DNA of 64,000 bases from Tahibacter harae (lineage in GTDB: Bacteria; Pseudomonadota; Gammaproteobacteria; Xanthomonadales; Rhodanobacteraceae): positions 1-64,000 of the forward strand of contig NZ_JANFQO010000005.1 in NCBI RefSeq assembly GCF_024437735.1, read 5' to 3'. The stretch's first letter is position 1, and each line of letters opens with the position of its first letter. The notes below the pieces were generated by a model. The model had not been told where the DNA came from and ran no database searches. It saw nothing but the letters and a program-made list of their open reading frames with translations. A program made the translations under genes and the position numbers. Below, in pieces: positions 377-21,244 of this stretch.

Positions 377-2673
377 ACGGAGTGCGACCAGTGCGTCTAC
401 GTCTCTATCCTCTCTGCCTGGTGGCGCTGCTGGTCGCCCTGGCGGGCTGCACCTCGGGCGGCAGCGTACGCCCCGACGCGGATGCCGAGCCCCTGCCCAC
501 ACGTTCCGCTCCGAGCGCCACCGAGGCCGAACGCGCCTTGGCCGGCAATGCCCGCGACGAAGGCCCGATCTCGCTCAGCGGCAGCAAGGATGCGCACGCC
601 AACGTGCCCAAGCCGGAAATCGAGAAGGGAACGGCCAAGTTCATCAACGAAGCCGCCGCCAGGGCGCCGGTCGCGGCCGTCCCCGACGGCGACGGCCAGC
701 TCACCTTCAATTTCGAGAACCAGCCCATCCAGGCCGTGGCCAAGGCCATCCTGGGCGACCTGCTGCAGCTCAACTACGTGATCGCGCCCGGCGTGCAGGG
801 CAACGTGAGTTTCTCCACGTCCAAGCCGATCAAGTCCGACCAGGCCATGTCCATCCTGGAGATGCTGCTGTCCTGGACCAACAACTCGCTGGTCTACAGC
901 GACGGCCGCTATACCGTGCTGCCGACCAAGGACGCGCTGCCGGGCAAGCTGGTGCCGCGCATCGCGCCGCCGGGCGCATCCAAGGGCTATGAAGTGCGCG
1001 TGTTCCCGCTGCGCTTCGTTTCGCCCAAGGAAATGGAGAAGCTGCTCAAGCCCTACGCCAAGCCGGATGCCTTCGTCTCGGTCGATACCTCGCGCAGCAT
1101 GCTGGTGCTGGCCGGCACGGCGACGGAGCTGTCCAACTACCAGCGCACCATCGACACCTTCGACGTGGACTGGCTCAAGGGCATGTCCATCGGCGTCTAC
1201 GCCGTGGTCAATGTCGAGGTCGCCAAGATCATGCCGGAGCTGGACAAGCTGTTCGGCGCCACCGGCGAATCGCCCATGGCCGGCATGTTCCGCTTCGTGC
1301 CGATCGAGCGCACCAACTCCGTCATCGTGATCACGCCGAATCCGGATTACCTGGCCCAGGCCGAGGAATGGCTTCGCCGGCTCGACATGGGCGGCAGTGA
1401 AAACGGTACTCAGCTCTATGTATACGATGTCAAGAATGTGAAATCGGTGGATCTGGCCGACCGCCTCAACGAGGTGTTCACCGGACAGCGCGGCAGCGGC
1501 GGCAGCTCCTCGCGGCGCAGCTCGCGCGGCGGCGTCGCGCCGGGCCTGCAGTCGGTCGAGGTGCGCGGCACCAACGACACCAGCCGCCGCGCCGAGGCCG
1601 CGCGCGAGAAGCAGGCGGCGGCGACGGCGGGCACCGCCGGCGGCGGCACCCAGTCCTTCACCATCGGCGATGACGAGAACGAAGTCCGCATCACCGCGGT
1701 GGAAGAGAACAACCAGATCCTGGTCATGGGCACGCAGAGCCAGTGGGGCATCATCCAGAGCGCGATCAAGCGCCTGGACGTGGAGCCGCTGCAGGTGCAG
1801 ATCGAGACCAAGATCCTCGAAGTCAAGCTCGACGGCTCGCTCAAGTACGGCGTCAAGTGGTATCTGGAAGGCCTGATCGGCACCAGCAACCAGGACGCCA
1901 ACGGGCCCAACCGCTTCAGCGACTCGCAGCCGGGCAACCAGCAGCGCGGCCTGTTCGGCTCTCAGGGCAAGCCCGACGCCAACGCGAACTTCTTCTACTC
2001 CTTCATCAACAGCGAGATCGAAGTCGCCATCAACGCGCTGCAGTCCAACGGCAATACCAAGACCCTGTCGGCGCCCTCGCTGGTGGTGCTCAACAACAAG
2101 GAAGCCCGCATCAATGTCGGCGACCAGATCCCGGTGGTGCAGAACTACCTCAACGGCGGCATAGGCACGGGTTCGCTGGGCACCAGCTACGGCTCGGTGC
2201 AGTTCCGCGACGTGGGCGTGATCCTGACGGTCACGCCGCGGGTGAATCCCGGCGGCCTCGTCTATATGGAAGTGAGTCAGGAAGTGAGCAAGCCCGGCGT
2301 GGCCGACGTCACCGGCAACCGCGCCGTGTCCAAGCGCGAGATCGAGACCGAGATCGCGGTGCAGAGCGGCCAGACCGTCCTGCTGGGCGGCCTGATCGGC
2401 GAAGACGAAAGCAAGAGCAGGAACGGCGTGCCGGGCCTGAGCAAGATCCCGGTCATCGGCAATCTGTTCGGCTCCACTGACAAGAGCCGCACCCGTACCG
2501 AGCTGATCGTCATGATCACGCCGCGCGTGATCGGCAACGCCGTCGATGCCCGCTCCATCACCGAGGAATACCAGCGCCGCTTCGAATCCCTGCCGCCGCT
2601 CAAGGGCGCCGGCGGCGACACGCTGGAGAGCGCCTTCGGCGACGACAGCGAGAAGAAGAAAGCCAAGAAGTAA
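373..2673 (+). CDS. gspD: Type II secretion system secretin GspD (XpsD-like)
   Basis: 766-aa outer-membrane secretin, the channel through which folded exoproteins leave the periplasm. The N-terminus is a lipoprotein signal with lipobox LAGC (Cys26), as in Xanthomonas XpsD. N0 lies at about residues 113-190, followed by N1-N3 repeats (for example IERTNSVIVITPNPDYL). A Gly/Ser/Arg-rich loop at ~370-390 sits inside N3. The C-terminal secretin domain (~540-730) carries NNKEARINVGDQIPVV and the terminal motif TELIVMITPRVI. The start codon overlaps the preceding stop (ATGA), implying translational coupling. The other gsp genes must lie left of the window. Confidence 0.97.
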   Translation: MNGVRPVRLRLYPLCLVALLVALAGCTSGGSVRPDADAEPLPTRSAPSATEAERALAGNARDEGPISLSGSKDAHANVPKPEIEKGTAKFINEAAARAPVAAVPDGDGQLTFNFENQPIQAVAKAILGDLLQLNYVIAPGVQGNVSFSTSKPIKSDQAMSILEMLLSWTNNSLVYSDGRYTVLPTKDALPGKLVPRIAPPGASKGYEVRVFPLRFVSPKEMEKLLKPYAKPDAFVSVDTSRSMLVLAGTATELSNYQRTIDTFDVDWLKGMSIGVYAVVNVEVAKIMPELDKLFGATGESPMAGMFRFVPIERTNSVIVITPNPDYLAQAEEWLRRLDMGGSENGTQLYVYDVKNVKSVDLADRLNEVFTGQRGSGGSSSRRSSRGGVAPGLQSVEVRGTNDTSRRAEAAREKQAAATAGTAGGGTQSFTIGDDENEVRITAVEENNQILVMGTQSQWGIIQSAIKRLDVEPLQVQIETKILEVKLDGSLKYGVKWYLEGLIGTSNQDANGPNRFSDSQPGNQQRGLFGSQGKPDANANFFYSFINSEIEVAINALQSNGNTKTLSAPSLVVLNNKEARINVGDQIPVVQNYLNGGIGTGSLGTSYGSVQFRDVGVILTVTPRVNPGGLVYMEVSQEVSKPGVADVTGNRAVSKREIETEIAVQSGQTVLLGGLIGEDESKSRNGVPGLSKIPVIGNLFGSTDKSRTRTELIVMITPRVIGNAVDARSITEEYQRRFESLPPLKGAGGDTLESAFGDDSEKKKAKK

Positions 2674-2693: not shown

Positions 2694-3122
2694 ATGAAAA
2701 ACATCAAGTTGCTGTTCATGATCGCAGTTCTGGCCCTGCTTGCCGGCTGCGGCACCATGGGCGGCACCAAGTCCGGTGCCGCCGGCGGCAAGGGCAAGAC
2801 GGTCGAGGAGCGCGCCCAGGAGCGCTGGAACTACCTGATCGAGCGCAAGGCCGGCGAGGCCTACGAGTACCTCACCCCCGGCTACCGCAGCGCCCATCCC
2901 AAGGACGCCTATGCCGCCAAGATGTCGACCCGGCCGGTCAAATGGACCAAGGCGACCGTCACCGGCAAGCAGTGCGAGGATGAGAATACCTGCGAGGTCG
3001 CCCTCACCATCGAGTTCAGCCTGCGCATGGGCGGAGGTGTCGGAACGGTCTCAAGTTTCAATGTCCAAAAGGAAAAGTGGCTCCGGATCAAGAATCAGTG
3101 GTATCACCTTCCGGCCCAGTGA
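2694..3122 (+). CDS. Small lipoprotein of unknown function behind gspD
   Basis: 142-aa predicted lipoprotein with lipobox LAGC (Cys19) after a short hydrophobic signal. The mature part opens with a Gly/Ser/Lys linker, then a compact domain with AQERWNYLIERKAGEAYEYL near its start and a conserved-looking Cys pair (QCEDENTC). The arrangement of a helix plus Tyr-rich segment resembles small periplasmic domains that follow secretion or lipoprotein genes, but I do not recognise a named family. It lies 20 bp after gspD with its own GGAG ribosome-binding site, so it is probably co-transcribed and could be an accessory lipoprotein of the secretion system; that role is inferred from context. Confidence 0.8.
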   Translation: MKNIKLLFMIAVLALLAGCGTMGGTKSGAAGGKGKTVEERAQERWNYLIERKAGEAYEYLTPGYRSAHPKDAYAAKMSTRPVKWTKATVTGKQCEDENTCEVALTIEFSLRMGGGVGTVSSFNVQKEKWLRIKNQWYHLPAQ

Positions 3123-3287
3123 AGGTGGCCTCCGGAGCCGTTATTCCCGGGATTGCGTTGCCATAACCTTTGTTCTAGCATTGGCGCGCTGTTGCCCTAC
3201 CATGCCCAAAAAAGGCGGGCCAAAACCGCTGCTGCGGAGCATGGTCGGTTGTAAGCAAAAGCCCTGTGGTTCATTAGGAGTGTTGTG

Positions 3288-4817
3288 ATGAAAAGAAATA
3301 ATCTGACGACCTCGGTTGTCGCGGGCCTCGCCGCTATCGCCGGCATCGCCAGCACCGCGAACGCCGTTGAACTGAACCCGGATGGCCTGGGTCAGGTTCT
3401 GCTCTACCCGTACTACACCGTGAACGAAGGTCAGCAGACCCTGATCTCCGTGGTGAACACGGCCGAAGTTGCCAAGGCTGTCAAGGTCCGCTTCCTGGAA
3501 GGCTACAACTCCCGCGAAGTCCTCGACTTCAACCTGTTCCTGTCCCCGTTCGACGTGTGGACCGGCAACATCTTCGCCCTGTCCGATGCCACCCTGTCCG
3601 GCGACGGCGCCGCGATCGGTACGGCCGACAAGAGCTGTACCGCTCCGGACAAGAACCGTTGGACCGGCACCATCCCGGGCTCGACCGTTCCGTACAACAC
3701 CTTCCGCAACTACGCCTACACCGGCCGTAACGTCGACACCGGCCCGACCGGCTTCGAGCGTACCCGTGAAGGTCACATCGAGCTGATCTCGATGGCCGAC
3801 CTGGCTGGCTCGCTGGCTTCTGCCGTCACCCATCGTGGTGGCGTGCCGAACAACTGCTCGGTCGTCCAGTCGATCAGCCCGCAGAACTCGCTGCTCGTCG
3901 CTCCGACCAGCGGCCTGTTCGGCGCCGGCGGCATCGTCAACGTCTCGCAGGGTACGTTCTTCACGTACAACGCCGAGGCCATCGACGGCTTCACCAACAC
4001 GGTTCTGTTCTCTGACCAGTCCTCGCTGACGCCGTCGCTGGCTCAGGCGATCACCGGTCAGGACGGCACGGGCCAGGACATCGCCACTGCCTACGTCTTC
4101 GGCACCGGCGGTCAGCTGATCCGTTCGGACTACCTCGCCGGCGGCACGCCGAACAACGCCATCGACGCGGTCAGCGCCGTGTTCATGTCGTCCAACCTGT
4201 ACAACGAATACAACGTTGACTCCAGCGTTGGTTCGAACACCGACTGGGTTGTGACCTTCCCGACCAAGCGCTTCTACGTCGACAACCAGTACCTGCAGGT
4301 TCCGCTGCGTGGTCCGGGCGCCGTCGAGCCGTTCGTCTTCACCTTCGGCGAAGACGCTGACGGTAACGGCGATGGCCTGTCCTGCTCGGAAGTCGGTATC
4401 CTCCAGTACGACCGTGAAGAAGGCGCCCCGACCGAAGACAGCGACGGCTTCTCGCCGCCGCCGCCGGATCAGCCGCCCTCGGCTCTGTGCCGCGAAGTCA
4501 ACGTGATCAGCTTCCTGAACATCCCGCAGGGCTCTCCGGCCCCGACGGAATCGGGCGTGCTGTACTCGAAGCTCGTTGCCAACATCGATCCGTACGCTTC
4601 GACCGGCTGGCTGAACCTGGACCTGGCCGCCGACTCCGCCCACGTCAGCCGCGCCTCCATCGACGGCGACGTGTACAGCGGTCTGCCGGCTACCGGCTTC
4701 CAGGCTGTGAACTACGTCAACGAGAACGTGACCGAAGGCGTGCTGTCGAACTACAGCGGCCTGTTCCGTCACCGCGCCAGCCGCTCCTGCGCCAACGGCT
4801 CGGCCGTTTGCTCCTGA
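3288..4817 (+). CDS. Abundant exported protein with Ca-loop-like motif
   Basis: 509-aa exported protein of unknown function. ATG at 3288 is preferred over the GTG three bases upstream because AGGAG sits seven bases before it. A Sec signal peptide ends at ...STANA (residues 1-26). The mature protein begins VELNPDGLGQVLLYPYYTVN and has an all-beta look, six Cys, a DADGNGDG calcium-loop-like motif at ~356-363 and a Pro-rich stretch at ~389-398. Codon use differs from neighbouring genes: CGT, GGT and GTT are frequent, as in very highly expressed genes. With the strong ribosome-binding site and strong terminator this suggests a major exported or surface protein. Placement behind gspD makes it a candidate type II substrate (inference). 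Residues ~330-393 are duplicated at the window start. Confidence 0.85.
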   Translation: MKRNNLTTSVVAGLAAIAGIASTANAVELNPDGLGQVLLYPYYTVNEGQQTLISVVNTAEVAKAVKVRFLEGYNSREVLDFNLFLSPFDVWTGNIFALSDATLSGDGAAIGTADKSCTAPDKNRWTGTIPGSTVPYNTFRNYAYTGRNVDTGPTGFERTREGHIELISMADLAGSLASAVTHRGGVPNNCSVVQSISPQNSLLVAPTSGLFGAGGIVNVSQGTFFTYNAEAIDGFTNTVLFSDQSSLTPSLAQAITGQDGTGQDIATAYVFGTGGQLIRSDYLAGGTPNNAIDAVSAVFMSSNLYNEYNVDSSVGSNTDWVVTFPTKRFYVDNQYLQVPLRGPGAVEPFVFTFGEDADGNGDGLSCSEVGILQYDREEGAPTEDSDGFSPPPPDQPPSALCREVNVISFLNIPQGSPAPTESGVLYSKLVANIDPYASTGWLNLDLAADSAHVSRASIDGDVYSGLPATGFQAVNYVNENVTEGVLSNYSGLFRHRASRSCANGSAVCS

Positions 4818-4854
4818 TAGTTCAGCATCAGAAGTAGCAGGTAAGCAGTAAAGG

Positions 4855-4885
4855 AAAGAGGGGCCTCCGGGCCCCTCTTTTTTTT
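4855..4885 (+). terminator. Rho-independent terminator
   Basis: Perfect 11-bp stem (AAAGAGGGGCC with GGCCCCTCTTT), TCCG loop, followed by an uninterrupted T tract. It lies about 40 bp after the stop of the exported-protein gene and is one of the strongest terminators in the window. Confidence 0.95.
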
Positions 4886-5790: not shown

Positions 5791-5821
5791 TTGCACAGGT
5801 CCGGGTCTCTGGCGCTAAACT
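5791..5821 (+). promoter_or_regulatory. Possible sigma-70 promoter of the exported Cys-rich protein gene
   Basis: TTGCAC and TAAACT are separated by 19 bp, ending 33 bp before the chosen ATG. Both hexamers are good but the spacer is long, so this is only a candidate. Confidence 0.3.
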
Positions 5822-5854
5822 CCGCCCGCTCCCGATCTGATTTGGAATTTGTCA

Positions 5855-6994
5855 ATGCCTGTTTTGCGCCTGCCCGCTACCGCTGCGCTGCTGCTCACCA
5901 TTGCAGCCGCCTCCGGTTCCGTGAACGCCCAGACTTCCGTGCCGCTGCAATTGGAATGGGAATCCCCCACGGGCACCAAGACCTGTACTTTCACTACAGA
6001 TTCCAATGGTGTGACCCTGGTGGGCGGCGGCCCCGCGCTGAAGGCCAAGGGGGCCTTCGGCACGACGGATTGCCCTACCGGCACCACGACGCCGCCGACG
6101 GGGCCTGCCATCGTCAACGACATCAGCACCACTGAGATTCCGCCCACGACCACGGGCGGCGCTCAGCACACCATCAGCTGGGCGGCCACCAACGCCGACA
6201 GCTGCAGCTATTCGGGCACGTTCCCGTCCGCCGTCACGGGCTGGCCGGCCGGCGTCGCCTGTACCGGTGCGACCGATTGCGCCACGACGCGCAACGTTCC
6301 GATCACCATGCCGTCCACGGCCGGTACCTATACTTTCACGCTGACCTGCAGCAAGTCCGGCTTCAGCCCGGTCAGCTCCAGCGCCTCGACCACGATTTCC
6401 TCCGGCCCGCCGCCGGCCGGCTGTATTGCGCCCACCGGTCTGACCCGGCTGCTGTCCGGCAGGGTGGCCTACAACGACGGCAACGATCGCAACAATATCG
6501 ATCTGACCCGCTTCGAAAACGTCTTCGGCCATGACAACCAGGGCGGCTCGAACCGTCTGTGGCCGGGCACGCAGAACATCAACCAGCGCATCTTCATCCC
6601 GCGCAACAACTACGTCTCGCTGCAGTTCACCGTGCCTTCCAATTTCCACTCGGATACGCGTGGCCAGTACCGCTTCGAGGAAACCGCGCCCAGCGCCAGC
6701 GTCATGTCGATCACCGTCAGCAAGGCCTGCGGCGACTTCAACACCACGCCGACCTCGCCGATGACGACCAAGTGCATCCTCAACGGCGGCGCGCTGAACA
6801 GCGCACTGACCTGGGGCAAGACCGGCCTGACCGCGCGCTGCCAGCTGGATCCCGGCCAGACCTACTACCTCAACATCGTCCACGCCAATCTCAATACCAT
6901 CACCACTTCGGGTTGCTCGGTTGCCAGCTGCGCCAACACGATCCAGAACCAGAACATGAACCCCAGCACCAACCCGACCATAGGCTGGCCCTGA
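5855..6994 (+). CDS. Exported Cys-rich protein of unknown function
   Basis: 379-aa protein with a clear Sec signal peptide (MPVLRLPATAALLLTIAAAS..., cleavage near SVNAQ). I chose ATG 5855 over the in-frame TTG two codons upstream. The mature part contains 12 Cys, an even number that suits disulfides in the periplasm or outside the cell. Residues ~90-190 look like one Ig-like or PKD-like beta domain (TISWAATNADSCSYSG ... GTYTFTLTCSK). After a PPPAGC linker, a second beta-rich domain ends in TIGWP. Thr/Ser-rich linkers are prominent. No catalytic motif is visible. Like its upstream neighbour it may be a type II secretion substrate, but only position suggests this. Confidence 0.8.
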   Translation: MPVLRLPATAALLLTIAAASGSVNAQTSVPLQLEWESPTGTKTCTFTTDSNGVTLVGGGPALKAKGAFGTTDCPTGTTTPPTGPAIVNDISTTEIPPTTTGGAQHTISWAATNADSCSYSGTFPSAVTGWPAGVACTGATDCATTRNVPITMPSTAGTYTFTLTCSKSGFSPVSSSASTTISSGPPPAGCIAPTGLTRLLSGRVAYNDGNDRNNIDLTRFENVFGHDNQGGSNRLWPGTQNINQRIFIPRNNYVSLQFTVPSNFHSDTRGQYRFEETAPSASVMSITVSKACGDFNTTPTSPMTTKCILNGGALNSALTWGKTGLTARCQLDPGQTYYLNIVHANLNTITTSGCSVASCANTIQNQNMNPSTNPTIGWP

Positions 6995-7172: not shown

Positions 7173-8123
7173 ATGCACAAACTGTTGTTTGCTCTCGGTC
7201 TGGCGCTATCGACGACGGCGGCTTTCGCGGCGGAAGCCAAACCTGAAGACCAAGTCCTGATCACCCAGGGCGAGGTCAAGCTGACCATGGCCGATGTCGA
7301 TGCCTATGTCGCGCGCATCCCGGCGGCCGACCGCGCCGGATTCATGGCCAAGCCCGAGCGCATCCAGACCATGCTGCGCAATATGTTGCTGGACCGTCAG
7401 CTCGCCGCCGAAGCGCGCAAGCTCGGCCTGGACAAGGATCCGCTGGTACAGCGCCAGATCGGTCTCGCCACCGATTCCACCCTCGGCCGCGTGCGCACCC
7501 AGAAGCTGCTCGAATCCCTCAAGGTGCCGGATTTCAGCGCCCAGGCCGAAGAGGAATACCTGGCCAACAAGAGCAAATACAGCGTGCCGGCGCGCGTCGA
7601 CGTCAAGCACATCCTGATCGGCGACAAGACCCGCACGCCGGAAGAGGCTGCGGCGCTGGCGCAGGACACCCTGGCCAAAGTGACCAAGAACCCGGCCCAG
7701 TTCGATGCGCTGGTCGAATCCCTGTCGGATGATCCGAGCAAGAAGGACAACCACGGGCTGATCGAGAACGCGACCTCGAGCCAGCTGGTCCGCCCCTTCG
7801 CCGAAGCCTCCGGCAAGCTGGCCAAGCCCGGCGACCTGTCGCCGGTCGTGAAAACCACCTTCGGCTACCACATCATCCGTGCCGAGAGCATCACCCCGGC
7901 CAAGCCGCGTCCGTACGAGCAGGTGCGCGAAAACATCATCGCCTCCCTGACGAAGGAATGGACCGAGAAACAGATGCGCGGCCATATCGACGAGCTGCGC
8001 AACATGCGCAGTGAGGAAAATGCCGAACTGCTGCTGTCCCTGCGCGACCGCTACAGGACCGCGGGTGCCAGCGTGGATGCGACGGCGGTGGATGCCGGGA
8101 CCGAGTCCGACAAGGTCGAGTGA
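7173..8123 (+). CDS. Periplasmic parvulin-type peptidyl-prolyl isomerase (PpiC/SurA-like)
   Basis: 316-aa exported chaperone/prolyl isomerase. ATG 7173 gives a signal peptide MHKLLFALGLALSTTAAFA; an upstream TTG is less likely. A helical SurA-N-like region (~30-125) has the typical RNMLLDRQLAAEARKLGL segment. It is followed by a rotamase domain (~140-238) with VDVKHILIGD at its start and FGYHIIRAE at its end, and a charged C-terminal helix. Expected role: assisting folding of exported or outer-membrane proteins, which suits its place behind two exported-protein genes and before a surface-polysaccharide exporter. Confidence 0.9.
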   Translation: MHKLLFALGLALSTTAAFAAEAKPEDQVLITQGEVKLTMADVDAYVARIPAADRAGFMAKPERIQTMLRNMLLDRQLAAEARKLGLDKDPLVQRQIGLATDSTLGRVRTQKLLESLKVPDFSAQAEEEYLANKSKYSVPARVDVKHILIGDKTRTPEEAAALAQDTLAKVTKNPAQFDALVESLSDDPSKKDNHGLIENATSSQLVRPFAEASGKLAKPGDLSPVVKTTFGYHIIRAESITPAKPRPYEQVRENIIASLTKEWTEKQMRGHIDELRNMRSEENAELLLSLRDRYRTAGASVDATAVDAGTESDKVE

Positions 8124-8180
8124 CGGCCGCCGCATGCACCTGCTGATTCGAGGGTGGGCCGCCGCGGCCCGTCCCGCGGC

Positions 8181-8975
8181 ATGATGCCGGCGCTCGCTGC
8201 GCGCCTGCCCACGCTGGGACTGGCGCTGCAGCTCGCCCGCCGCGAGCTGCGCAACCGCTATCTGGGCAGTTTCAGCGGCGGCGCCTGGGCGCTGCTGCAG
8301 CCGCTGGTGCAGCTGGCGGTCTACGCCTTCGTATTCGGCTACGTGTTCCGCGCCCGCCTGCCGGGCGCGGATGCGCCGGGCTACGTGCCCTTTCTCGTGG
8401 TGGCGCTGTGGCCGTGGACGGCCTTTGCCGAGGCGCTGAGCCGCGCCACCACCGCGATTCCGGACAATGCCAGCCTGATCGGCAAGGTCGCCCTGCCGCG
8501 GGTGGCCCTGGTGATCGCGCCGGTGCTGGCCAGCTTCACCATCCACGGTGCCGGCTTCATCGGCCTGCTGCTGGTGCTGCTGCTGGCCGGCGCGGGCATC
8601 TCCCCGGCCGGGCTGCTGCTGATGCTGCCGGCGCTGCTGCTGCTGTTCCTGTTCGCGCTGGGCCTGGCTCTGCTGCTGTCCGCATTGCAAGTCTTCGTGC
8701 GCGATATCGCACCGGCCCTGCCGCAGCTGCTGATGCTGTGGATGTTCCTTTCCCCGGTGTTCTACGCGCGCAGCGCCATGCCGGAATTCGTGCAGCCCTG
8801 GTTCGATCTCAACCCCATGACCGGCGTGGTCGAATACCTGCGCCAGGTGCTGCTGGGCATGCCGCCGCCGGGACTGCGCGCGCTGGCCTGCAGCCTGCTC
8901 GCCGTGGCCCTGGCACTGTGGCTGGGCGGTTTCGCCTTCCGCCGCCTGCAGCGCCATTTCGAGGATTTCCTGTGA
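8181..8975 (+). CDS. wzm: ABC-2 polysaccharide exporter permease (Wzm-like)
   Basis: 264-aa inner-membrane permease with about six hydrophobic segments and the ABC2-membrane family pattern: amphipathic RRELRNRYLGSFSGGAWALL at the N-terminus and FLSPVFYA plus NPMTGVVEYLRQ in the last third. It would carry lipid-linked O-antigen or another polysaccharide across the inner membrane together with the ATPase encoded next. The start is not certain: ATG 8181 and 8184 are both possible, and a GTG lies 27 bp upstream; none has a strong Shine-Dalgarno sequence. Its stop overlaps the next start (GTGA), so the two are translationally coupled. Confidence 0.92.
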   Translation: MMPALAARLPTLGLALQLARRELRNRYLGSFSGGAWALLQPLVQLAVYAFVFGYVFRARLPGADAPGYVPFLVVALWPWTAFAEALSRATTAIPDNASLIGKVALPRVALVIAPVLASFTIHGAGFIGLLLVLLLAGAGISPAGLLLMLPALLLLFLFALGLALLLSALQVFVRDIAPALPQLLMLWMFLSPVFYARSAMPEFVQPWFDLNPMTGVVEYLRQVLLGMPPPGLRALACSLLAVALALWLGGFAFRRLQRHFEDFL

Positions 8976-10192
8976 GCGCCGACCTGCTGGTCCAGGCCAG
9001 CGGCCTGGGCAAGAGCTATCCGCGCGTATTCCGCCGCAGCGACCGCCTGCGTGCGCTGCTGGGCTTGCTGGCCGGACGCCAGACCGGCGAAGTCACGCCG
9101 GTGCTGCAGGACATCGACCTCAGCGTGCTGCGCGGCCAGTCGCTGGGCCTGATCGGCGACAACGGCGCCGGCAAGTCCACCTTGCTGAAGCTGCTGACCG
9201 GCGTGCTCACGCCCAGCCAGGGCAGCGTGCGCGTCAACGGCCGCATCGGCGCGCTGCTGGAACTGGGCGCCGGCTTCCATCCCGAATACAGCGGCCGCGA
9301 CAACATCGCCATGGCGGCGGCCCTGCAGGGCTTTTCCGCCGACGAACTGGCCGCGCGCCTGTCCGACATCATCGCCTTCGCCGACATCGGCCACTACATC
9401 GACGAGCCGGTCAAGCACTATTCCTCGGGCATGGTCGTGCGCCTGGGCTTCGCCATCGTCGCGGCGACCCGGCCGGACCTGCTCATCACCGACGAAGTAC
9501 TCGCCGTCGGCGACGAATCCTTCCAGAAGAAATGCGTGCGCTGGATGGAGGATTACCTGGCCCAGGGCGGCACCCTGATCCTGGTCTCGCACAGCATGTA
9601 CCACATCCAGAAACTGTGCCGGCAGGCGCTGTGGCTGCGCCAGGGCCGCATGCAGGCCTGCGGCGACGTGTACGAGGTGACCCAGGCCTACCTGGCCTAC
9701 CACGAGCGCAAGTCCGCCGGCGAAGGCCCGGCCGCGCGCGATCTCGACGCGGTGCGCGGGCTGGAATTCCACGTGCGCGGCATGCGCGTCAACGGCGAGG
9801 AAGCCGAGACCTTGACGCCGGTGGACCACGGCGCGCCGCTGACAGTCGAGGCCACCATCGCCTCCCGCGACGGCCGCGTGCCGGTGGTCAACATCGGCAT
9901 CGCCCGGGCCGACGGCACGCCGGTCTACGGCGTCAGCACCGACATGGACGGCGTGCAGCCCGCGCCGCTGGCCGACGGCGACTACCGCATCGTGCTGCAT
10001 TTCCCGGCGCTGCCGCTGCTGCCGGCCAGCTATACGATACGGGTCCATCCACTGGACACCGAAGGCATGCGCCTGTTCGACACCCTGGAACGGCTGCTCA
10101 CGGTGCGCGGGCGCAGTTCCGAGTCGGGACTGGTGCGGCTGGCCCACACCTGGGAACATGCCGCCCCCTTGGTCAGGCCCCGTCGCGAATGA
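8972..10192 (+). CDS. wzt: Polysaccharide ABC exporter ATPase with C-terminal substrate domain (Wzt-like)
   Basis: 406-aa ATPase starting at GTG within the wzm stop. The nucleotide-binding domain (~1-235) has Walker A GDNGAGKST (~63), a YSSGM signature (~150), Walker B LLITDEVLAVGDE (~168) and a His switch (LVSHS). A C-terminal beta-sandwich (~250-395; VNIGIARADGTPVYG) matches Wzt carbohydrate-binding domains. In known systems this domain recognises a terminal modification of the glycan, such as methylation. The next gene is a methyltransferase, so chain termination by methylation is a reasonable inference, as in O8/O9-type antigens. Confidence 0.95.
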   Translation: MSADLLVQASGLGKSYPRVFRRSDRLRALLGLLAGRQTGEVTPVLQDIDLSVLRGQSLGLIGDNGAGKSTLLKLLTGVLTPSQGSVRVNGRIGALLELGAGFHPEYSGRDNIAMAAALQGFSADELAARLSDIIAFADIGHYIDEPVKHYSSGMVVRLGFAIVAATRPDLLITDEVLAVGDESFQKKCVRWMEDYLAQGGTLILVSHSMYHIQKLCRQALWLRQGRMQACGDVYEVTQAYLAYHERKSAGEGPAARDLDAVRGLEFHVRGMRVNGEEAETLTPVDHGAPLTVEATIASRDGRVPVVNIGIARADGTPVYGVSTDMDGVQPAPLADGDYRIVLHFPALPLLPASYTIRVHPLDTEGMRLFDTLERLLTVRGRSSESGLVRLAHTWEHAAPLVRPRRE

Positions 10193-11121
10193 CTGGCAGC
10201 GTCCCCCTGGAGTTCACCGGCGAGCGCTTCACGCCCGAGTGCGTGCGCGAGATCTGGTACGAGCACTGGCATCGCTATGCCCTGGTACAGCCCTGGGCGC
10301 AGGGCCGGCGCGTGCTCGACGCCGCCTGCGGCGAGGGCTACGGCAGCGCGCTGCTGGCGCGCGGCGCGCAGTCGGTGCTGGGCCTGGACATTTCCCCGGC
10401 CGCCGTCGCCCATGCCCGGGCGCGCTATGCCGGCCTGCCCAACCTGCGCTACGAACAGGCCGATGCGACCCGCCTGCAATTGCCGGCCGGCGCCTTCGAC
10501 CTGGTCGTCTCCTTCGAGACCCTAGAACACGTCGAGGCCCAGGAAGCGCTGCTGGACGGTCTTTGCCAAGCCCTGGCCGACGACGGCCTGCTGGTGATTT
10601 CCTCGCCGGACAAGGCCACCTACGGCGAAGCCGCCGGCTTCCGCAACGAATTCCACGTGCGCGAGCTGTACCGGCACGAGTTCGAGCAGCTGCTGCGCGC
10701 GCGCTTCGCCCATGTGCGCCTGTATGCCCAGCGCCTGCTGTTCCAGTCGGCAATCTGGGCGCTGGATCCGCCCCCCGGCGCCGAGCCCGCGCACTACGCC
10801 ACGGCCGCCCTGGACGGCCAGGTCCAGCCGGGCCTGGACTACGCGCCGATGTACTACATCGCCGTGTGCTCGCGCCGGCCGCTGCCGCCGCTGCCGGCTT
10901 CGTCCTGGTTCGGCGACCGCGACGAAAGCGTCTATCAGCACTACAATCACGAAATCCGCAAGAACATGGCCGCGGGCGCGCGCATCGCGGAACTCGAGGC
11001 GCAAGTGGCCCAGCTGCAGCGCGAACAGGCTGCGGCGGCGGCACCGGTCCCGATGCCGGCGCCGGACGCGGCCCCCCCGGCGCAGCCCTGGTGGCGGCGC
11101 TGGCGGAGCAGGGGACGCTGA
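10189..11121 (+). CDS. SAM-dependent methyltransferase of the glycan cluster
   Basis: 310-aa class I methyltransferase. Motif I is VLDAACGEGYG (~42), the acidic end of strand 2 is VLGLDIS, and motif IV/post-IV is FDLVVSFETLEHV. Beyond the Rossmann domain come FRNEFHVREL and, at the C-terminus, a short coiled coil (ARIAELEAQVAQLQREQ, ~265-282) and a Pro/Ala linker ending in Trp/Arg. Coiled coils in terminating methyltransferases such as WbdD act as length rulers; the resemblance is only in layout. ATG overlaps the wzt stop by four bases, so this is one translational unit with the exporter. Confidence 0.88.
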   Translation: MTGSVPLEFTGERFTPECVREIWYEHWHRYALVQPWAQGRRVLDAACGEGYGSALLARGAQSVLGLDISPAAVAHARARYAGLPNLRYEQADATRLQLPAGAFDLVVSFETLEHVEAQEALLDGLCQALADDGLLVISSPDKATYGEAAGFRNEFHVRELYRHEFEQLLRARFAHVRLYAQRLLFQSAIWALDPPPGAEPAHYATAALDGQVQPGLDYAPMYYIAVCSRRPLPPLPASSWFGDRDESVYQHYNHEIRKNMAAGARIAELEAQVAQLQREQAAAAAPVPMPAPDAAPPAQPWWRRWRSRGR

Positions 11122-11223: not shown

Positions 11224-13092
11224 ATGAGCAGCAATCTGCAGTACCAGTACACCTTCGACGCCACGCCCGCCGTGACGATTCCGCCGCTGCGGCCCAATCC
11301 GGCCACGCCGGTCTACGCCTCGGAGGACGCCGTGGTCGCCTCGCTGTCCAACAGCGAGTGCGTGTTCCAGGTCAAGCGCACCGGCGACGCCCATGTGATG
11401 ACCTTCCAGGTGCTGCAGGCGCTGGATCAGTGCCGGGAATTCCGCACCCTGGACGAACACGTCGCGCGCATCCAGAGCACCATCCCCGGCCTGGAACAGC
11501 AGCGCGAAGCCGTGACCCGCGTGCTCCAGAACCTGATCGAGCGCGACCTGCTCATCTCCGACGCGCGTTTCACCCAGCGCCTGACCGCCGCCGCGCCGCG
11601 TCCGCTGGAGCCGCTGCGCGCCATCTTCATCCGCGCCTGCGACCGCCCCGCCCAACTGGAACGCCTGCTGGCCACGGTCGGCGAATACGAGCGCCGCCAC
11701 CGTGCCGGCCGCCATTACGTGGTGCTGGACGACTCCAGCCTGGCCACCAACATCGACCGCCACCGCGACCTGCTGCGCGAATTCGCCCGCACCACCGGCT
11801 GCAAGGTCAGCTTCTTCGGCCCGGCCGAGCGCCAGCGCCTGGTCGAACGCTTCGCCAAGGCCGTGCCTGGCAGCACCGGCGTGCTGCAGCAGATGCTGCT
11901 GCCGGCCGCCGGCGCCAACCGCTTCGGCGGCGGCCGCAGCTGGAACCTGGCCCTGCTGCTCTCTGCCGGCGGCCGTTTCGTGCTGTTCGACGACGACCAG
12001 CGCCTGCCGCTGCGCCGCCACGAGCTGGCCCAGGGCGGGCTTGACCTGAACCCGACCCAGTCGCCGTTCGCGCGCTTCTACCGCAACATGGAAGAGGCCC
12101 TGGCTGCCGGCGAGGAAATCGCCGACGACCCGTTCGGCCTGCACCTGGATGTGTGCGGCCTGTCCATCGGCGAGCTGATCGCACGCAGCGAATTCGGCAT
12201 CAACCGCGAATCCCTGCGCGGCCTCAACCTGGCTCGCCTGGCGCACCTCAACAGCGACACCCGCGTACTGGTGACCCAGCAGGGCACCTACGGCAGCGCG
12301 CGCTCGGAAAGCGCCGCCTGGATCTACCACCTCGACGCCGCCGGCCGCGCCGATCTGTGCGCCAGCCGCGAAGCCTATCTGGCCAATGTCGAGGCCCAGT
12401 TCATCTGGCAGGGCACCAGCCGTGCGCGCCTTTCCACCATCTCCTGGTTCACGCCGTTCGCGTTCGACAACAGCGTGCTGCTGCCGTGTACCAACGCGGT
12501 GGGCCGCGGCGAGGATGCGCTGTTCTCCGCCGCCGCGCATTTCTGCCATCCGGATGCGCTTGCGCTGGAACTGCCGTTCGCGGTCGGCCATGTGCAGGAA
12601 CAGTCGCGGCGCCGTTCGCAGCGTTCGCTGCTGGCCAGCACGCCGCGCGTGAACCACTTCGCCACCGACTACATCCAGCGCCAGTTCGGCAGCTTCCTCG
12701 CCAGCGATCCGGCCCAGCGCCTGGAACTGCTGGCGAACATCTTCCGCGACCTGGCCGGCGCCAGCGAGATGGTGCGCATTACCCACCTGCGCGAATACCT
12801 CAACTACGTGCGCGCCGATGCGATCGAGCGCCTGCAGCAGCAGTTCGAGAGCGCCTCCGACGCGCCGGTGTTCTGGCAGGCTGACGTGCGCAGCATCATC
12901 GACGCCAACGGCCGCGCCCTGATCGCCAAGGCGCCGCCGCGCCTGGGCGACTGGGGCGACGATTTCGACAATGCGGCCTGCGCCCGCGCCCTGCGCGACG
13001 AACTGCAGGGCCTCGCGGCCAACTACAGCGCCTGGCCGGCGCTGTGGGAACGCGCGCGCGAACTCGGCGACAAGACCCTGGCCGGGGCCTGA
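11224..13092 (+). CDS. Glycosyltransferase-like protein with PqqD-like N-terminal domain
   Basis: 622-aa cytoplasmic protein with no signal peptide. Residues ~35-118 resemble a PqqD-type winged helix (MTFQVLQALDQC ... VLQNLIERDLLISD), the fold used as a peptide-recognition element in RiPP enzymes. From ~137 a GT-A-like domain begins (AIFIRACDRPAQLERLL, then HYVVLDDSS). It continues with RSWNLALLLSAGG and FVLFDDDQRLP, in which the DDD at ~255-257 would be the metal/nucleotide-sugar site, and RGEDALFSA near ~429. The C-terminal ~150 residues are helical. Assigning it as a glycosyltransferase rests on these motifs and on neighbours that build and export a glycan. The PqqD-like call is by pattern only. 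Confidence 0.65.
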   Translation: MSSNLQYQYTFDATPAVTIPPLRPNPATPVYASEDAVVASLSNSECVFQVKRTGDAHVMTFQVLQALDQCREFRTLDEHVARIQSTIPGLEQQREAVTRVLQNLIERDLLISDARFTQRLTAAAPRPLEPLRAIFIRACDRPAQLERLLATVGEYERRHRAGRHYVVLDDSSLATNIDRHRDLLREFARTTGCKVSFFGPAERQRLVERFAKAVPGSTGVLQQMLLPAAGANRFGGGRSWNLALLLSAGGRFVLFDDDQRLPLRRHELAQGGLDLNPTQSPFARFYRNMEEALAAGEEIADDPFGLHLDVCGLSIGELIARSEFGINRESLRGLNLARLAHLNSDTRVLVTQQGTYGSARSESAAWIYHLDAAGRADLCASREAYLANVEAQFIWQGTSRARLSTISWFTPFAFDNSVLLPCTNAVGRGEDALFSAAAHFCHPDALALELPFAVGHVQEQSRRRSQRSLLASTPRVNHFATDYIQRQFGSFLASDPAQRLELLANIFRDLAGASEMVRITHLREYLNYVRADAIERLQQQFESASDAPVFWQADVRSIIDANGRALIAKAPPRLGDWGDDFDNAACARALRDELQGLAANYSAWPALWERARELGDKTLAGA

Positions 13093-13102
13093 GCGGCCCG
13101 CC

Positions 13103-14002
13103 ATGCCGCTGGCCGGAACGACCAGCGTGATCATCGTCGCCGCCGACAGCGGCGACGGCCTGATTGCCGGCGCACGCCGGGTACTGGCGGCGGATGCGCC
13201 GCTGCAGCTCATCGTCAGCGACAACGCCAGCAGCGACGGCAGCATCGGACAGCTGCAGCGGGAATTCGGCGGCGACGCGCGGCTGCGCATCGTGCACAAC
13301 GGGAAAAATCTCGGCTTCGGCGCCGGCGTCAACCGCGCCGCCGCGCTGGCCGACGGCGATTGCCTGCTGGTACTCAATCCGGACTGCCTGATCGAGCACG
13401 ACACCCTCGCGCGCCTGCGCGGCCAGGCGCGCGCACCGCGCACCGGCGTGGTCGGCGTGCGCATACAGGATGGTGCCGGGGTGGACGAACCGGCCTCGCT
13501 GCGGCGGGATCCCACCCTGCGCCGCAGCCTGTGCAGCCTGCTGCGGCTGGACCGCTTCGCCGCGCGCTGGCCGGCCCTGGCCGGTGTGAACGTGGCGGCC
13601 GACGCGGTGCAGCGCGGCGAGGACGGCATTGCCGAGGCAATTTCCGGCGCGGTGATGCTGTTCCCGCGGGAAGCCTTCGACGCGGTCGGCGGCTTCGACG
13701 AAGACTTCTTCCTGCACTGCGAAGATCTCGACATCTGCCGCCGCCTGCGCGATGCCGGCTACGCCGTGCGCTATGCCGGCTCCATCCGCGTGCCGCACGG
13801 CAAGGGCGGTTCCAGCCGGCACCGGCCGGTGTTCGTCGCCTGGCACAAGCACCGCGGCATGTGGCTGTGGTTCCGCCGCCATGACCCGGCCGCGCGCAAT
13901 CCGCTGCTGCGCGTCCTGGTCCGGGCCGGCATCTGGACGCGCTTCGGCCTGTTGTTGCCGCTGTTGCTGTGGCGCAAATGGCACCATCGCCGCGGCGGCT
14001 GA
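13103..14002 (+). CDS. Family 2 glycosyltransferase (rhamnosyltransferase-like)
   Basis: 299-aa GT-A enzyme. Strand-1 and nucleotide motifs are SVIIVAADSG and IVSDNASSDGS, then NGKNLGFGAGVNRA, the metal-binding LNPDC (~92) and FFLHCEDLDICRRLRDAGY (~205-222), all typical of rhamnosyltransferase/WbbL-type family 2 enzymes. The C-terminal hydrophobic, basic tail (FGLLLPLLLWRKWHHRR) suggests membrane association. It starts 10 bp after the previous stop and closes the rightward half of the glycan cluster. Confidence 0.9.
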   Translation: MPLAGTTSVIIVAADSGDGLIAGARRVLAADAPLQLIVSDNASSDGSIGQLQREFGGDARLRIVHNGKNLGFGAGVNRAAALADGDCLLVLNPDCLIEHDTLARLRGQARAPRTGVVGVRIQDGAGVDEPASLRRDPTLRRSLCSLLRLDRFAARWPALAGVNVAADAVQRGEDGIAEAISGAVMLFPREAFDAVGGFDEDFFLHCEDLDICRRLRDAGYAVRYAGSIRVPHGKGGSSRHRPVFVAWHKHRGMWLWFRRHDPAARNPLLRVLVRAGIWTRFGLLLPLLLWRKWHHRRGG

Positions 14003-14060: not shown

Positions 14061-14729
14061 CTACCAGTGCTCGCCCAGCACCGCCGGCACATAGCGCGCG
14101 CCGCGTTCGCGCACCAGGCGCGAGTAGATCTGTCCGTCGGAGGCGGCGGAGCGGTCGTACCAGCCGCCGATCTCGCGCCATACCGTGGCCCTGGCCACCA
14201 GCTGCAGGCAGTCGATCAGGCCGGGCACGGTGGGAAAGCCGGCGTAGATCAGGCCGTGCTGCGGCCGGGCCGGGTCGCGGTAGATCGAGCCGCGTCCGCT
14301 GAAGTGCATGCCGCGCATCAGCACGGCGAAGATCAGGATATCCGGGTTCTCCAGCAGTTCCGGCGCGGGCGCCGGCGTCACCGGCTGGCGGCTCCAGTGG
14401 TCCAGCACTTCCAGCGCTTCCGGATAGAGCAGGTTGTCCGGGTTGAAGTGGACGATGTACTCGCCGCGGGCCTCGGCGATGCCCCGGTGGCGCAGCGAGT
14501 GGCCCCAGTCGTTGTGGCGCTGCCCGGCGATCTCGATGCGCAGGCGCTGCTCCAGGCCCAGGGCGGAAAGATCGGGCAGCGGCCGCGACAGCGGGCCGTC
14601 GTGGTACAGCAGGACCTCGAAATCGCCGAAGCGCTGCTGCGCCAGGCAGTCCAGGCCGCGCAGCAGCACGGCGTCGCTGATGCTGCCGTCGTAATGCGGC
14701 ACGATGATGCTGAAGCGCGGCGAACTCAT
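14061..14729 (-). CDS. Family 2 glycosyltransferase, short
   Basis: 222-aa GT-A-like protein beginning MSSPRFSIIVPHYDGS. It shows LLYHDGPLS, NDWGHSLRHRGIAEARGEY and the DxD-type motif HFNPDNLLYPEAL, then an acceptor half ending VPAVLGEHW. It ends facing the rightward cluster, with 58 bp between the convergent stops. Its ATG overlaps the stop of the gene upstream by four bases (ATGA), so the two are made together. Sugar and acceptor are unknown. Confidence 0.85.
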   Translation of the reverse strand: MSSPRFSIIVPHYDGSISDAVLLRGLDCLAQQRFGDFEVLLYHDGPLSRPLPDLSALGLEQRLRIEIAGQRHNDWGHSLRHRGIAEARGEYIVHFNPDNLLYPEALEVLDHWSRQPVTPAPAPELLENPDILIFAVLMRGMHFSGRGSIYRDPARPQHGLIYAGFPTVPGLIDCLQLVARATVWREIGGWYDRSAASDGQIYSRLVRERGARYVPAVLGEHW

Positions 14730-16072: not shown

Positions 16073-16160
16073 CCGGATTCCCGCTCGGAGAAAAACCACG
16101 TATTGCGCCGTGCCTCCCGTCCCCAAGCGCGGGAGGCACGGACCGGGCTGTCCGCCGGCC

Positions 16161-17822
<1,662 letters not shown>

Positions 17823-18040
17823 TGGACTCGCTTCCGGAAGGCGGAAAAGTCCGCAATTATCCTCGATAAGCTCCCCGCGGGGCCAGCGCGCGGCCGGCAT
17901 ATGCAACGGACGCGCAATGCGCGGTGCGCCATCGCAGGCCGTGCGACGGCCGCGGCGCAGTATCTGTCTGCCGGCGTCGCCCAGGATGGGAGTCGCGGCC
18001 GGATTGGCCGGCGCCGGCACCACAGGACTGTTCAGGTCTG

Positions 18041-18071
18041 GCGCGGCTGCGCAAGCAGCCGCGCTTTTTTT
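18041..18071 (+). terminator. Intrinsic terminator on the strand opposite to both neighbours
   Basis: Perfect 10-bp stem GCGCGGCTGC / GCAGCCGCGC closed by a GCAA (GNRA) tetraloop and followed directly by seven T. The T tract is on the plus strand, while the genes on both sides run on the minus strand, where the hairpin is preceded by A7 and followed by no T tract. It therefore cannot be a normal terminator for either neighbour. Confidence 0.85.
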
Positions 18072-18075
18072 CGTC

Positions 18076-19059
18076 TCAGCCGGGTGCGGCCAGCCAGTGG
18101 CCTATCCAGTCGTGGATCGGTTCGGCCAGGCGCTCGTCGGCCAGCAGCAGGGTGCCCGGGCGGTAGGCCGGCGCCTCCCGGCGCGGCGCCAGTTCGGGGA
18201 ACTTGGCCAGGAATCGCCGGGCATAGCCTTCCCAGCTCGCGGCGAAATTGCCGCCGGAGGCATGCCACAGCAGCAGGTCCAGGGCGACGGCGCAGCGCAG
18301 GCCGGTGCGGTGGGCGCGCCAGCTCAGATCCAGGTCGTAGAAATGGAAGCCATCGAAGGTTTCCGCGTCGAAGCCCAGCTGCTCCAGCGCACCGCGGCGC
18401 GCCGCCAGGAATACGCCGTCCAGGCCCTGGGCTCCCGCGATCAGCGGCCCGCGGCTGCCGAGCAGGCCCAGCAGCCAGCCCTGGCCCTGGGGCTGGCCGA
18501 CCCAGGAATAGGTATGCGGCGGCCCGCTCCAGAACCATTTCGGGCCGTCCAGGCGGTCGCAGCCGGCCACGCCGATCAGGTCCTGTCCGGCCAGGTGACG
18601 ACGCAGGGTGGTGGCGAAGCGGCGGGTGAACAGGCCGATGTCGTCGTGGCAGAGCACGATCAGCTCGCCGCGGGCGCGGGCCAGGCCGCGCGCATAGCCC
18701 TCGTTGAGCGAGCGCGCATCGGCGATATGCACCAATTCCCAGTCCTCGCCGGCCAGTTCGCGCTCCAGGTCGCGGCGCAGCCGCGCCAAGCGCGCCGGTT
18801 CAATGCTGCAGACGATGACCGAGATGCGGCCGGCGGCGCGCTCGCCGTCGGGCTCCTGGCGCGGTGCCTGGCGTCCGGCGATGACCAGCCGGGCCGCACA
18901 TTCGAGCAGGCCCTGCGCCGCGACATGCTGCTGCGGATCGGCCCGCCAGGCCTCGCGCAGCCCGGCCGCCGCGCCCAGCCAGTCGCCGCGTCGGCCGGCA
19001 TCCAGGGCCTGTTGCAGCAGGCGGGCGGCGAGCTGTGGCTCGGAGGCGGATTCAGTCAT
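18076..19059 (-). CDS. TPR-glycosyltransferase-like protein B
   Basis: 327-aa paralogue of the protein encoded at 14726-16072, with a shorter N-terminal helical repeat region (~1-75). Shared motifs in order are [56 protein letters not shown] and [15 protein letters not shown]. Its start overlaps the stop of the upstream SPINDLY-like gene by eight bases. The duplicated pair now lies on either side of ettA. Substrate unknown. Confidence 0.83.
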
Positions 19060-21244
19060 GGGCGGTGACCGCGGGCGGCTGCACCTGGCACAGGAAATCC
19101 GCCAGGGCGGCGCAGACGCCGCTGTCTTCGAACAGCACATGCTTGCGCTCGGCGATGGTGCGGCCCAGCGCGTGCAGCTGTTCCGGCGCGCCGGCCAGGG
19201 CGACGGCGCGGGCGATATAGTCCTCGGCGGAATCGGCGATCAGCGCATCCAGCTCCAGCGCGCGCAGCATGGCGTAGCTCTGCCGGCCGCGCATGCACTC
19301 GCCGGGCAAGGTCAGCCAGGGCTTGTCGCGCCACAGCGCGTCCAGGGTGGTGATGCCGCCGGAGAAGCCCAAAGTGTCCAGCAGCAGGTCGGCCTGTTCC
19401 ACGGCCTGGAGATATTCCGCAGCCGGCAGCGCGGTGCAGACCTGCACCCGGGCCGGATCCACGCCGTATTCGCCCAGGCTGGCGTGCAGGCGGCGCGCGA
19501 AACCTGCGGCCTGTTCTTGCGTGGCGGCGGTCAGGAATTGCAACGTCGTGCCCGGCGCCTGGGCCAGGATGCGGCCGAACAGCGCATCGTGGGCGGGATA
19601 CAGCTTGTACAGGTTCTGCAGGCAGGCCAGGCGCACCGGGCCCGGTGCGCGCGGCGCCGCCGCGACCGGCCCGGGCCGGGCAAAGCAGCCGCCCAGGCGC
19701 GGCAGGCGCTGCAGGATCTCGCTGTAGTGCTGCTGCGCGTGGGCCGGCTCGGCCGCGTCCGCGGACAGGAAATAGTCGATCGCTGCCGCGCCGCTGGTCA
19801 CCGGATGGGCCCAGGTCGCCACCTGCACGGGCGCATGCCGCAGTGCGGCCAGGCACTGGTTGACCACGTCCAGGCCCAGGTCGAGAAAGATCAGGACATC
19901 CAGTTCCGCCGCGCGCAGCCGCGCGCTCCAGTCGGCAAAGCTGCCGCCGCCGGCCTGGTAGTGGTCGGCGCGGGCGCGGAAGCGCTGCACCATTGCGTCG
20001 TCGCCGCTGCCGGTGTGGAACACGCACAGCTCCAGCCGCTCGCGCGGCAGGGCGAGCAGGGCTTCGCCCCAGGCCCGCGTGACGGAATGCTGGTGCAGGC
20101 AGCTCGATACCAGGCCTATGCGCCGGCGCGCGCGCCGTATCGGCCGCGGCGGCAGGTCGGCAATGGCGGCGCCCGTGGCGGCGTCGAGCAGGCGCCGCAC
20201 CACGGCCGCGTGGCGCCGGTGCAAGGCCACATGGGCGCCGTCCTGATAGGCCAGGGCGAAATCCGGCACGCTGCCGAGCAGGCGTCCGGCAGTGGCGGCA
20301 TCCAGGTCTTCGTGTTCAAACCCGGCCAGGCCGCGCTCCCAGTCCGCCAGCCATTGCGCGCGCTGGGCTTCGGACTCGAAGCAGGGCAGGGCCGGCGTAT
20401 GGAACAGCACCCAGCGCGCCAGCGCGTCGCGCGGCGACTGCGCCAGCACCTGGCGGAAAGTGGCGACGGCGGCGGCGGTCTGGTGCGCGCCGATGCGGGC
20501 CAGGCCCAGCTGTTGCAGCGCGGCCAGGGAGCCGGGCTGCAGCCGCACCAGTTGCTCGTGCACGGCGACGGGCTCCGCGCCGCCCTGGCGCCAGGCGTCG
20601 AGCACGGCGGCGCGGCGCTGCCAGATGGCCAGGTCCTGCGGCGCCAGCTCGCTGGCCCGGCGCAGCGCCGCGGCGGCGGCGTGCCAGTCCTGCGCGGCGG
20701 CGGCGGCCTGGCCCAGGGCGTCCCAGGCGGCGGCCTGGTCCGGCAGCCATTCGACCAGGCGGCGTGCGTGGAAGCCCGCGGCCAGTGCATCGCCGCGGGC
20801 CAGTGCATCCGCCACCAGGCCCAGGCGCGCCTGGGCCATGCCGGCGGCTTGGCGCAACGGCGCGAATTCGCGCTCGGATTCGTCAAACCGATGGCGCAGG
20901 CCCAGCACATGGCCGCGCAGGAAGGCACCGCCGGCGTCGGCCGGCTGCAACCGGCGCATTTCGGCGGAAGCGGTATCGGCCTCGTCCAGCTGCCCGGTCT
21001 GCAGGGCGGCTATCGCGAGTTCGCGCCAGGCCGCGGCCAGGCGCGGATCGGCCTGTACCGCCTTGCGCAGCGCAGCCAGTGCCTCTTCGCCGGCACCGCG
21101 CCGGCGCAGGAGCTGGCCCAGCAGCAACTGCAGCGCGGCATCGCGCGGCCGCGCCGCCAGCGCCCGCCGGCACAGCTGTTCCGCGGCCGCGGCATCGCCC
21201 CGCTGCAGCGCCGACTGGATTTGCGCAGCACTCTGATCGGACAC
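19052..21244 (-). CDS. TPR protein with SPINDLY/OGT-like (GT41) domain
   Basis: 730-aa protein starting with GTG. About ten TPR-like repeats fill residues ~1-270. The C-terminal half has the layout of GT41 O-GlcNAc/O-fucosyltransferase-like proteins: [33 protein letters not shown], a [16 protein letters not shown] stretch, [19 protein letters not shown] and LALGC-type NDP-site equivalents near [19 protein letters not shown]. Bacterial members usually glycosylate proteins in the cytoplasm. Together with the two TPR-glycosyltransferases downstream it suggests a protein-glycosylation module. No GTG ribosome-binding site is strong, so the exact start is uncertain. Confidence 0.85.

Follow-up and report, generated by a model that had tools for sequence, protein, structure and literature searches.

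The open reading frame at 11224-13092 of the window (the whole stretch of 64,000 nucleotides of Tahibacter harae DNA analysed here) encodes a protein, labelled PQQD-GT in this analysis, that appears from its sequence to be a genuine fusion of a PqqD-like domain and a glycosyltransferase (GT). It has intact catalytic motifs, sits in a conserved neighbourhood of type II secretion system (T2SS) and glycan-export genes, and co-occurs with a family of secreted proteins, SURF510. PQQD-GT may help to build a surface glycan that is exported by an ABC transporter in a T2SS-linked system, and may be docked to a partner through its PqqD-like domain; this reading is proposed tentatively and given close to an even chance.

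PQQD-GT is a real, conserved gene. Its frame occupies exactly 11224-13092 on the plus strand and stays open throughout its 622 codons. Homologues occur in 40 of the 147 Rhodanobacteraceae genomes (5 of the 26 genera of the family) at 47-85% identity and mostly at full length, and alignments show conservation across the entire protein. Loci encoding proteins 73-84% identical to it come from Tahibacter and relatives. A class-level sample of 321 genomes contained three more matches, two of which (G151 and G292) clearly belong to the same family, and a phylum-level sample contained two distant ones; no relatives were found on plasmids or viral contigs. Searches of Pfam and NCBIfam gave no family above cut-off, and a PDB sequence search with the protein and its profile gave no match. 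At G099:C2:274743-276619 the gene was matched as three consecutive pieces rather than one frame, which reflects either sequencing errors or a decaying copy. A second copy is found in genome G059 (L050:3519-7119) beside a methyltransferase and an ATP-grasp-like ORF, and remnants of second copies, C-terminal only, are found in the genome of T. harae itself (G000:C10:38807-38965) and in G036 (C9:146948-147361).

The protein and the parts into which its sequence may be divided are as follows:

11224..13092, plus strand: PQQD-GT, PqqD-like/GT-A fusion protein of 622 aa (ORF, homologues, alignments)
11326..11571, plus strand: probable PqqD-like winged-helix domain, residues ~35-116, confidently aligned over ~64-114 (hhalign with shuffle and wHTH controls; weak AF2 model)
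11608..12633, plus strand: predicted GT-A-type glycosyltransferase domain, residues ~129-470, with DDS 169-171, DDD 256-258, GED 429-431 and H456 (alignments, PF00535, AF2, profile match)
12634..13089, plus strand: C-terminal domain, mostly helical, residues ~471-622, ending ...WPALW... (alignment, AF2)

Residues 129-470 are strongly indicated to be a GT-A-type glycosyltransferase, an assignment that is firmer than the PqqD call. The DDD and GED-type motifs named in the preliminary description are borne out by homologue alignments, in which DDS (169-171), DDD (256-258), GED (429-431) and His456 show little or no variation and G235-G-G-R238..N241 is likewise conserved. The catalytic motifs are retained in relatives at 27-28% identity, including the G292 protein (27%), which keeps DDS, GR..N, DDD, ED and H. 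These DDS, DXD, ED and His motifs are shared with GT family 2 (PF00535), to which mycofactocin MftF belongs, but PQQD-GT falls below the curated cut-offs of that family and carries extra helical C-terminal and N-terminal PqqD-like domains. PF00535 is matched weakly by 6 of 20 family members (best 6e-4, below curated cut-offs), and the query itself does not match it. The GT domain also gave no significant hhalign match to GT2a, a glycosyltransferase of the same operon (P 0.07), with the DXD region aligned. A full-length AF2 model built from 7 close sequences had a mean pLDDT of 38 and was usable only at residues 133-225, which form a beta-alpha-beta-alpha-beta unit. The best VIA matches to this segment are mostly GT-A enzymes (among them mannosyl-3-phosphoglycerate synthase, GlcAT-I, GnT-I and mannosylglycerate synthase) at Z 6-8, values that are not decisive alone. 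The profile of the GT domain matches proteins of 504-635 aa at loci L041, L093 and L094 (P 1.3e-12, 97.8%), which are GTs without the PqqD-like front domain; since the L093 protein starts straight at the GT domain, the PqqD-like domain is a separate module. One PqqD-less relative matches MftF at 0.0017. Genes of this PqqD-less family (~500-640 aa) lie directly behind one for an acetolactate-synthase-like TPP enzyme in three Gammaproteobacteria.

The N-terminal domain is probably a PqqD-like winged helix. A hydrophobic pattern of the PqqD/RRE type had been noticed there, and it holds up: strands read from the sequence near ASLS, ECVFQV and HVMT are followed by three helices, which as predicted is the order of RREs and not of DNA-binding winged helices. 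RREs have a topology of three strands and three helices (PMC12710340). In an hhalign comparison of 22 aligned PQQD-GT family members (residues 20-128) and 26 aligned PqqD sequences retrieved via PF05402, residues ~64-114 matched with P 5.3e-5, a score of 29.9 and a probability of 67%, which is below the 90% required by RRE-Finder in its own search. The best of 200 column shuffles reached 17.3 against this 29.9, and other parts of PQQD-GT scored 15.6 (GT) and 20.0 (C-terminal) with the PqqD profile. Control profiles built in the same way scored 23.2 (IclR HTH) and 19.2 (MarR) on the N-terminal domain, with only 22-23 columns aligned.

The domain could instead be an ordinary winged helix, structural or vestigial and without peptide binding, which would make PQQD-GT a divergent polysaccharide GT; this is considered distinctly unlikely. 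It would fit with the Pfam model of PqqD (PF05402), which matched neither PQQD-GT nor 19 aligned homologues up to an E-value of 10, nor anything in a search of the T. harae genome. Moreover, when PqqD is compared with MarR and IclR by the same method, the matches are about as good as that of the domain to PqqD, and HTH domains are among the main false positives of RRE-Finder (PMC7470986). AF2 modelling of the domain alone (7 close sequences, mean pLDDT 52) gave two strands (19-22 and 25-28 of the fragment, at low confidence), three helices (36-48, 56-66 and 74-86) and a fourth helix. A fold search with this weak model found diverse proteins at Z <=5.5, many of them generic winged helices; no PqqD entry was among the matches, which at this model quality excludes nothing. 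The ordinary winged helix is harder to reconcile with the profile scores, in which PqqD exceeds both MarR and IclR on the domain and covers more columns, with the strands that precede the helices, and with the comparatively high conservation of the domain within the protein.

Profile comparison of the kind that the preliminary description had suggested gave similarity to PqqD above the controls and no PF05402 match. Of the fusion it proposed, the GT half stands strongly on motifs and profile, and the PqqD half moderately, on a profile score that is itself moderate. In size, in the predicted order of strands followed by three helices, in profile similarity over ~64-114 and in fusion to a modifying enzyme the domain is like PqqD and the RREs; it differs in that Pfam does not match it directly, RiPP precursors and enzymes are missing nearby, and the context is one of secretion and glycan export. 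It is a reasonable inference that PQQD-GT may recognise a partner protein or peptide.

The conserved block around PQQD-GT contains the following genes:

391..2673, plus strand: GspD, type II secretion secretin at the end of the T2SS operon; the ORF opens at 373 (TIGR02517, 1.5e-146; upstream T2SS genes in relative L149)
2694..3122, plus strand: small lipoprotein between gspD and SURF510, conserved (synteny)
3285..4817, plus strand: SURF510, secreted protein of a multi-copy family co-occurring with PQQD-GT (genome searches, paralogue alignment)
5864..6994, plus strand: surf376, secreted protein with no family (synteny)
7173..8123, plus strand: PPIC-type peptidyl-prolyl isomerase with signal-like N-terminus (domain match; synteny)
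8154..8975, plus strand: Wzm-like ABC-2 permease (PF01061)
8972..10192, plus strand: Wzt-like ABC ATPase with Wzt_C carbohydrate-binding domain (PF00005, PF14524)
10189..11121, plus strand: SAM methyltransferase carrying a short coiled coil and a basic tail rich in Trp; candidate terminator of the glycan chain (domain match, sequence)
13103..14002, plus strand: GT2a, GT2-family glycosyltransferase, the most constant partner gene of PQQD-GT (PF00535, 3e-16; synteny)

Gene calls and BLAST across the fetched neighbourhoods show that the order gspD-lipoprotein-SURF510-surf376-PPIase-wzm-wzt-methyltransferase-PQQD-GT-GT2a is common to g1 (Tahibacter), g5, g9 and g26. The conserved context goes beyond the preliminary description in including the T2SS secretin, SURF510, the PPIase, Wzm/Wzt, the methyltransferase and GT2. 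The block of g16 is split over two loci with its parts kept, wzm-wzt-methyltransferase-PQQD-GT-GT2a at one and gspD-SURF510-PPIase at the other (L045, L153). All parts are also present in G004 and G099, with PQQD-GT and GT2a ~150 kb or more from the remaining block. Upstream of gspD, relative L149 encodes GspK, a PilN-like GspL, GspM and a weak GspC. In G292, which belongs to another family of the class, the PQQD-GT gene starts ~26 bases after gspF, and this adjacency independently links it to the T2SS. The PQQD-GT/GT2 pair of G151 is followed by genes for an epimerase, an APS kinase and a UDP-sugar dehydrogenase. At the very start of the window, positions 2-202 hold a 94% identical copy of SURF510 residues 331-398, in frame with the apparent end of an upstream T2SS protein; this junction is probably a misassembly at a repeat. 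Between SURF510 and surf376 (4817-5864) there is ~1 kb without a recognisable gene, and the same interval is only 100-170 bp in several relatives from other genera.

Wzm, Wzt with Wzt_C and a candidate coiled-coil terminator stand with PQQD-GT in one operon, and the methyltransferase ends in a conserved coiled coil of RIAELEAEV type and a tail of WWRRWR type. For O-antigens exported by ABC transporters it is established that a terminator uses a coiled-coil ruler to fix the length of the chain (PMC3482155, PMC11231755). Because the Wzm, Wzt_C and coiled-coil methyltransferase of the block resemble such O-polysaccharide systems, PQQD-GT and GT2a can be placed as chain builders. PQQD-GT would be a GT-A glycosyltransferase, either cytoplasmic or peripheral to the membrane, in a surface-glycan pathway linked to the T2SS by gene order and inheritance. 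Together with GT2a it would build a lipid-linked glycan. The methyltransferase, which bears a short coiled coil and a basic tail, might cap or measure this glycan in the manner of WbdD, and Wzm/Wzt, of which Wzt has a carbohydrate-binding domain, would export it. The linkage to the T2SS and SURF510 suggests that the exported glycan serves secreted surface proteins of the SURF510 type, which the T2SS would secrete. The PqqD-like domain would serve for docking: by binding a strand or peptide in one of the candidate partners (the methyltransferase, GT2a or a secreted-protein substrate) it would keep the GT within the complex.

The likeness to ABC O-polysaccharide assembly (WbdD/Wzm/Wzt; Klebsiella O4/O7) extends to Wzm, Wzt with Wzt_C, a coiled-coil methyltransferase and GTs. 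The PQQD-GT block differs in being joined to a T2SS operon and secreted proteins, and in having a PqqD-like domain on one GT, a short coiled coil and no kinase. Several features argue against the glycan-building reading: there are fewer GTs and no nucleotide-sugar genes compared with the usual full polysaccharide locus, the coiled coil of the methyltransferase is short relative to known rulers, and the GT pair lies away from the exporter in G004 and G099.

When the same 147 family genomes were searched with PQQD-GT, SURF510 and the methyltransferase, SURF510 was found in 39 of the 40 PQQD-GT genomes and in none elsewhere. The sole exception, G100, is an assembly of 240 contigs in which the contig starts ~5.6 kb before PQQD-GT. 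Close methyltransferase orthologues occur in the same 40 genomes, and the others hold only weaker paralogues (E around 1e-50) with longer frames. The five genera may represent one clade, so this co-occurrence could reflect a single inheritance event. SURF510 copies are present at 6 places in the T. harae genome (one a contig-end fragment) and number 10 in G036. The paralogues sit singly or in tandem elsewhere in the genome, mostly with a signal-like start, and have fold-wide conservation and usually two C-terminal cysteines; their comparison revealed no obvious shared tag and no evident C-terminal sorting signal.

These data are also the basis of the main rival explanation, which draws on the same observations as the glycan-building reading and differs from it in the acceptor. 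According to it, the PqqD-like domain would capture proteins destined for the T2SS (SURF510-family members or others) while they are in the cytoplasm, and the GT would itself glycosylate them before export, with Wzm/Wzt handling a separate or extending glycan. The near one-to-one co-occurrence with a family of several dispersed copies is what would be expected of one modifying enzyme with several substrates, and there are links to T2SS genes in two unrelated families. RRE domains, furthermore, recruit peptide substrates to fused enzymes (PMC7470986, PMC12710340). Direct protein glycosylation is nevertheless held to be possible but on balance improbable: the SURF510 paralogues have no obvious shared tag, and the close tie of PQQD-GT to Wzm/Wzt and the methyltransferase points to a glycan chain. 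Moreover, folding of T2SS substrates normally takes place in the periplasm, and glycosylation in the cytoplasm would therefore have to come before their export by Sec.

The region in front of SURF510 is conserved as well:

3168..3290, plus strand: SURF510 leader/promoter region, conserved (CTTTG..TA.CAT....CGCTGTTGCC and AAAGCCCTGTGGT..TTAGGAGTGTTG.GATG)

This leader in front of the in-locus SURF510 shows strong conservation between genera, and among the dispersed paralogues that were searched none had it upstream. A scan of window positions 1-24000 against Rfam gave no match reaching the gathering score of any family. A sigma-54 promoter was considered by eye and dropped, since the -24 box lacks a conserved GG. 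A further observation concerns protein ends of the form [IVL]F-x-[DN]-G-F-[EDQ], found on many secreted-looking proteins with kelch repeat, subtilase or endo/exonuclease/phosphatase domains (at L142, L144, L145, L146, L148, L167, L168, L221, L224 and other loci); this is possibly an undescribed C-terminal sorting tag. The C-terminal motif [IL]FxDGFE occurs in 6 of ~467 genes from three sampled PQQD-GT genomes versus 0 of ~468-470 from three genomes without PQQD-GT, and it is absent among 196 genes of the independent genome G292. Whether it marks substrates of the PQQD-GT system is a matter on which these counts are suggestive only.

A PqqD-like domain on a GT also raises the prospect of a RiPP tailoring enzyme, in which the GT would glycosylate a small precursor peptide and the domain would serve as its RRE. 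Fusions of an RRE with a glycosyltransferase are known from putative RiPP clusters (PMC7470986, PMC12710340), and the neighbours of the second copy in G059, the methyltransferase and ATP-grasp-like ORF, could be taken in the same sense. However, a search for small ORFs beside PQQD-GT at 16 loci found no conserved precursor-like ORF, and there is little room between the neighbouring genes; the only conserved small-ORF signal at these loci is the DNA/RNA leader in front of SURF510. The block contains no radical SAM, protease or other RiPP enzyme, its neighbours being secretion and polysaccharide-export genes. A RiPP role is hence very improbable, and the peptide side of the preliminary description finds no support at these loci.

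The preliminary description had also drawn attention to a SPINDLY-like protein in the locus, which is indeed present on the opposite strand:

19052..21244, minus strand: SPINDLY-like TPR/GT41 protein, a Tahibacter-only neighbour (PF13844, 6.9e-21)

As a member of the system it was rejected: it is absent around homologues in four other genera, and so is not part of the conserved block. More broadly, minus-strand positions 14061-21244 of the window hold a cluster around an ABC-F gene that consists of a GT2, a pair of PF13712-type GTs, one of them with TPRs, and the SPINDLY-like GT41; on this strand the second GT2-like gene, both TPR-GTs and the gene for the SPINDLY-like protein are all restricted to Tahibacter.

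As an architecture PQQD-GT is not new in kind, since RRE-glycosyltransferase fusions were already listed as unusual architectures by RRE-Finder in 2020 (PMC7470986), and an RRE fusion with a PF00535 glycosyltransferase was listed again in 2025 (PMC12710340). PQQD-GT shares with these the pairing of an RRE-like domain with a glycosyltransferase; they are listed as putative RiPP proteins, whereas PQQD-GT lies in a T2SS/Wzm-Wzt block and most of its family members have no Pfam GT2 call. The context of T2SS, Wzm/Wzt and SURF510 without RiPP features appears to be new, and no description of it turned up in a limited search of openly licensed papers.

In PEP-CTERM/exosortase and GlyGly-CTERM systems, sorting machinery travels together with secreted proteins and a glycan locus. 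The PQQD-GT block differs from these in that no exosortase or rhombosortase was seen in it. A broader proposal, regarded as rather unlikely, is that the block encodes a dedicated modification-and-display system for type II-secreted proteins, in which a cytoplasmic GT would select, through its RRE-like domain, secreted-protein substrates or their glycan-assembly partner, the ABC exporter would deliver the glycan and the T2SS would deliver the protein. Such a system would work like the exosortase/PEP-CTERM or T9SS/A-LPS route from unrelated parts.

RRE/PqqD-like domains are read as markers of peptide natural products. The PQQD-GT family suggests that they also serve surface-glycan or secreted-protein pathways, and it is a warning to genome miners that loci like this block should not be called RiPP clusters. 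The SURF510/T2SS/Wzm-Wzt block offers a concrete case in which a new linkage of secreted proteins and surface glycans could be tested, and hints at a dedicated coating or anchoring of secreted proteins.
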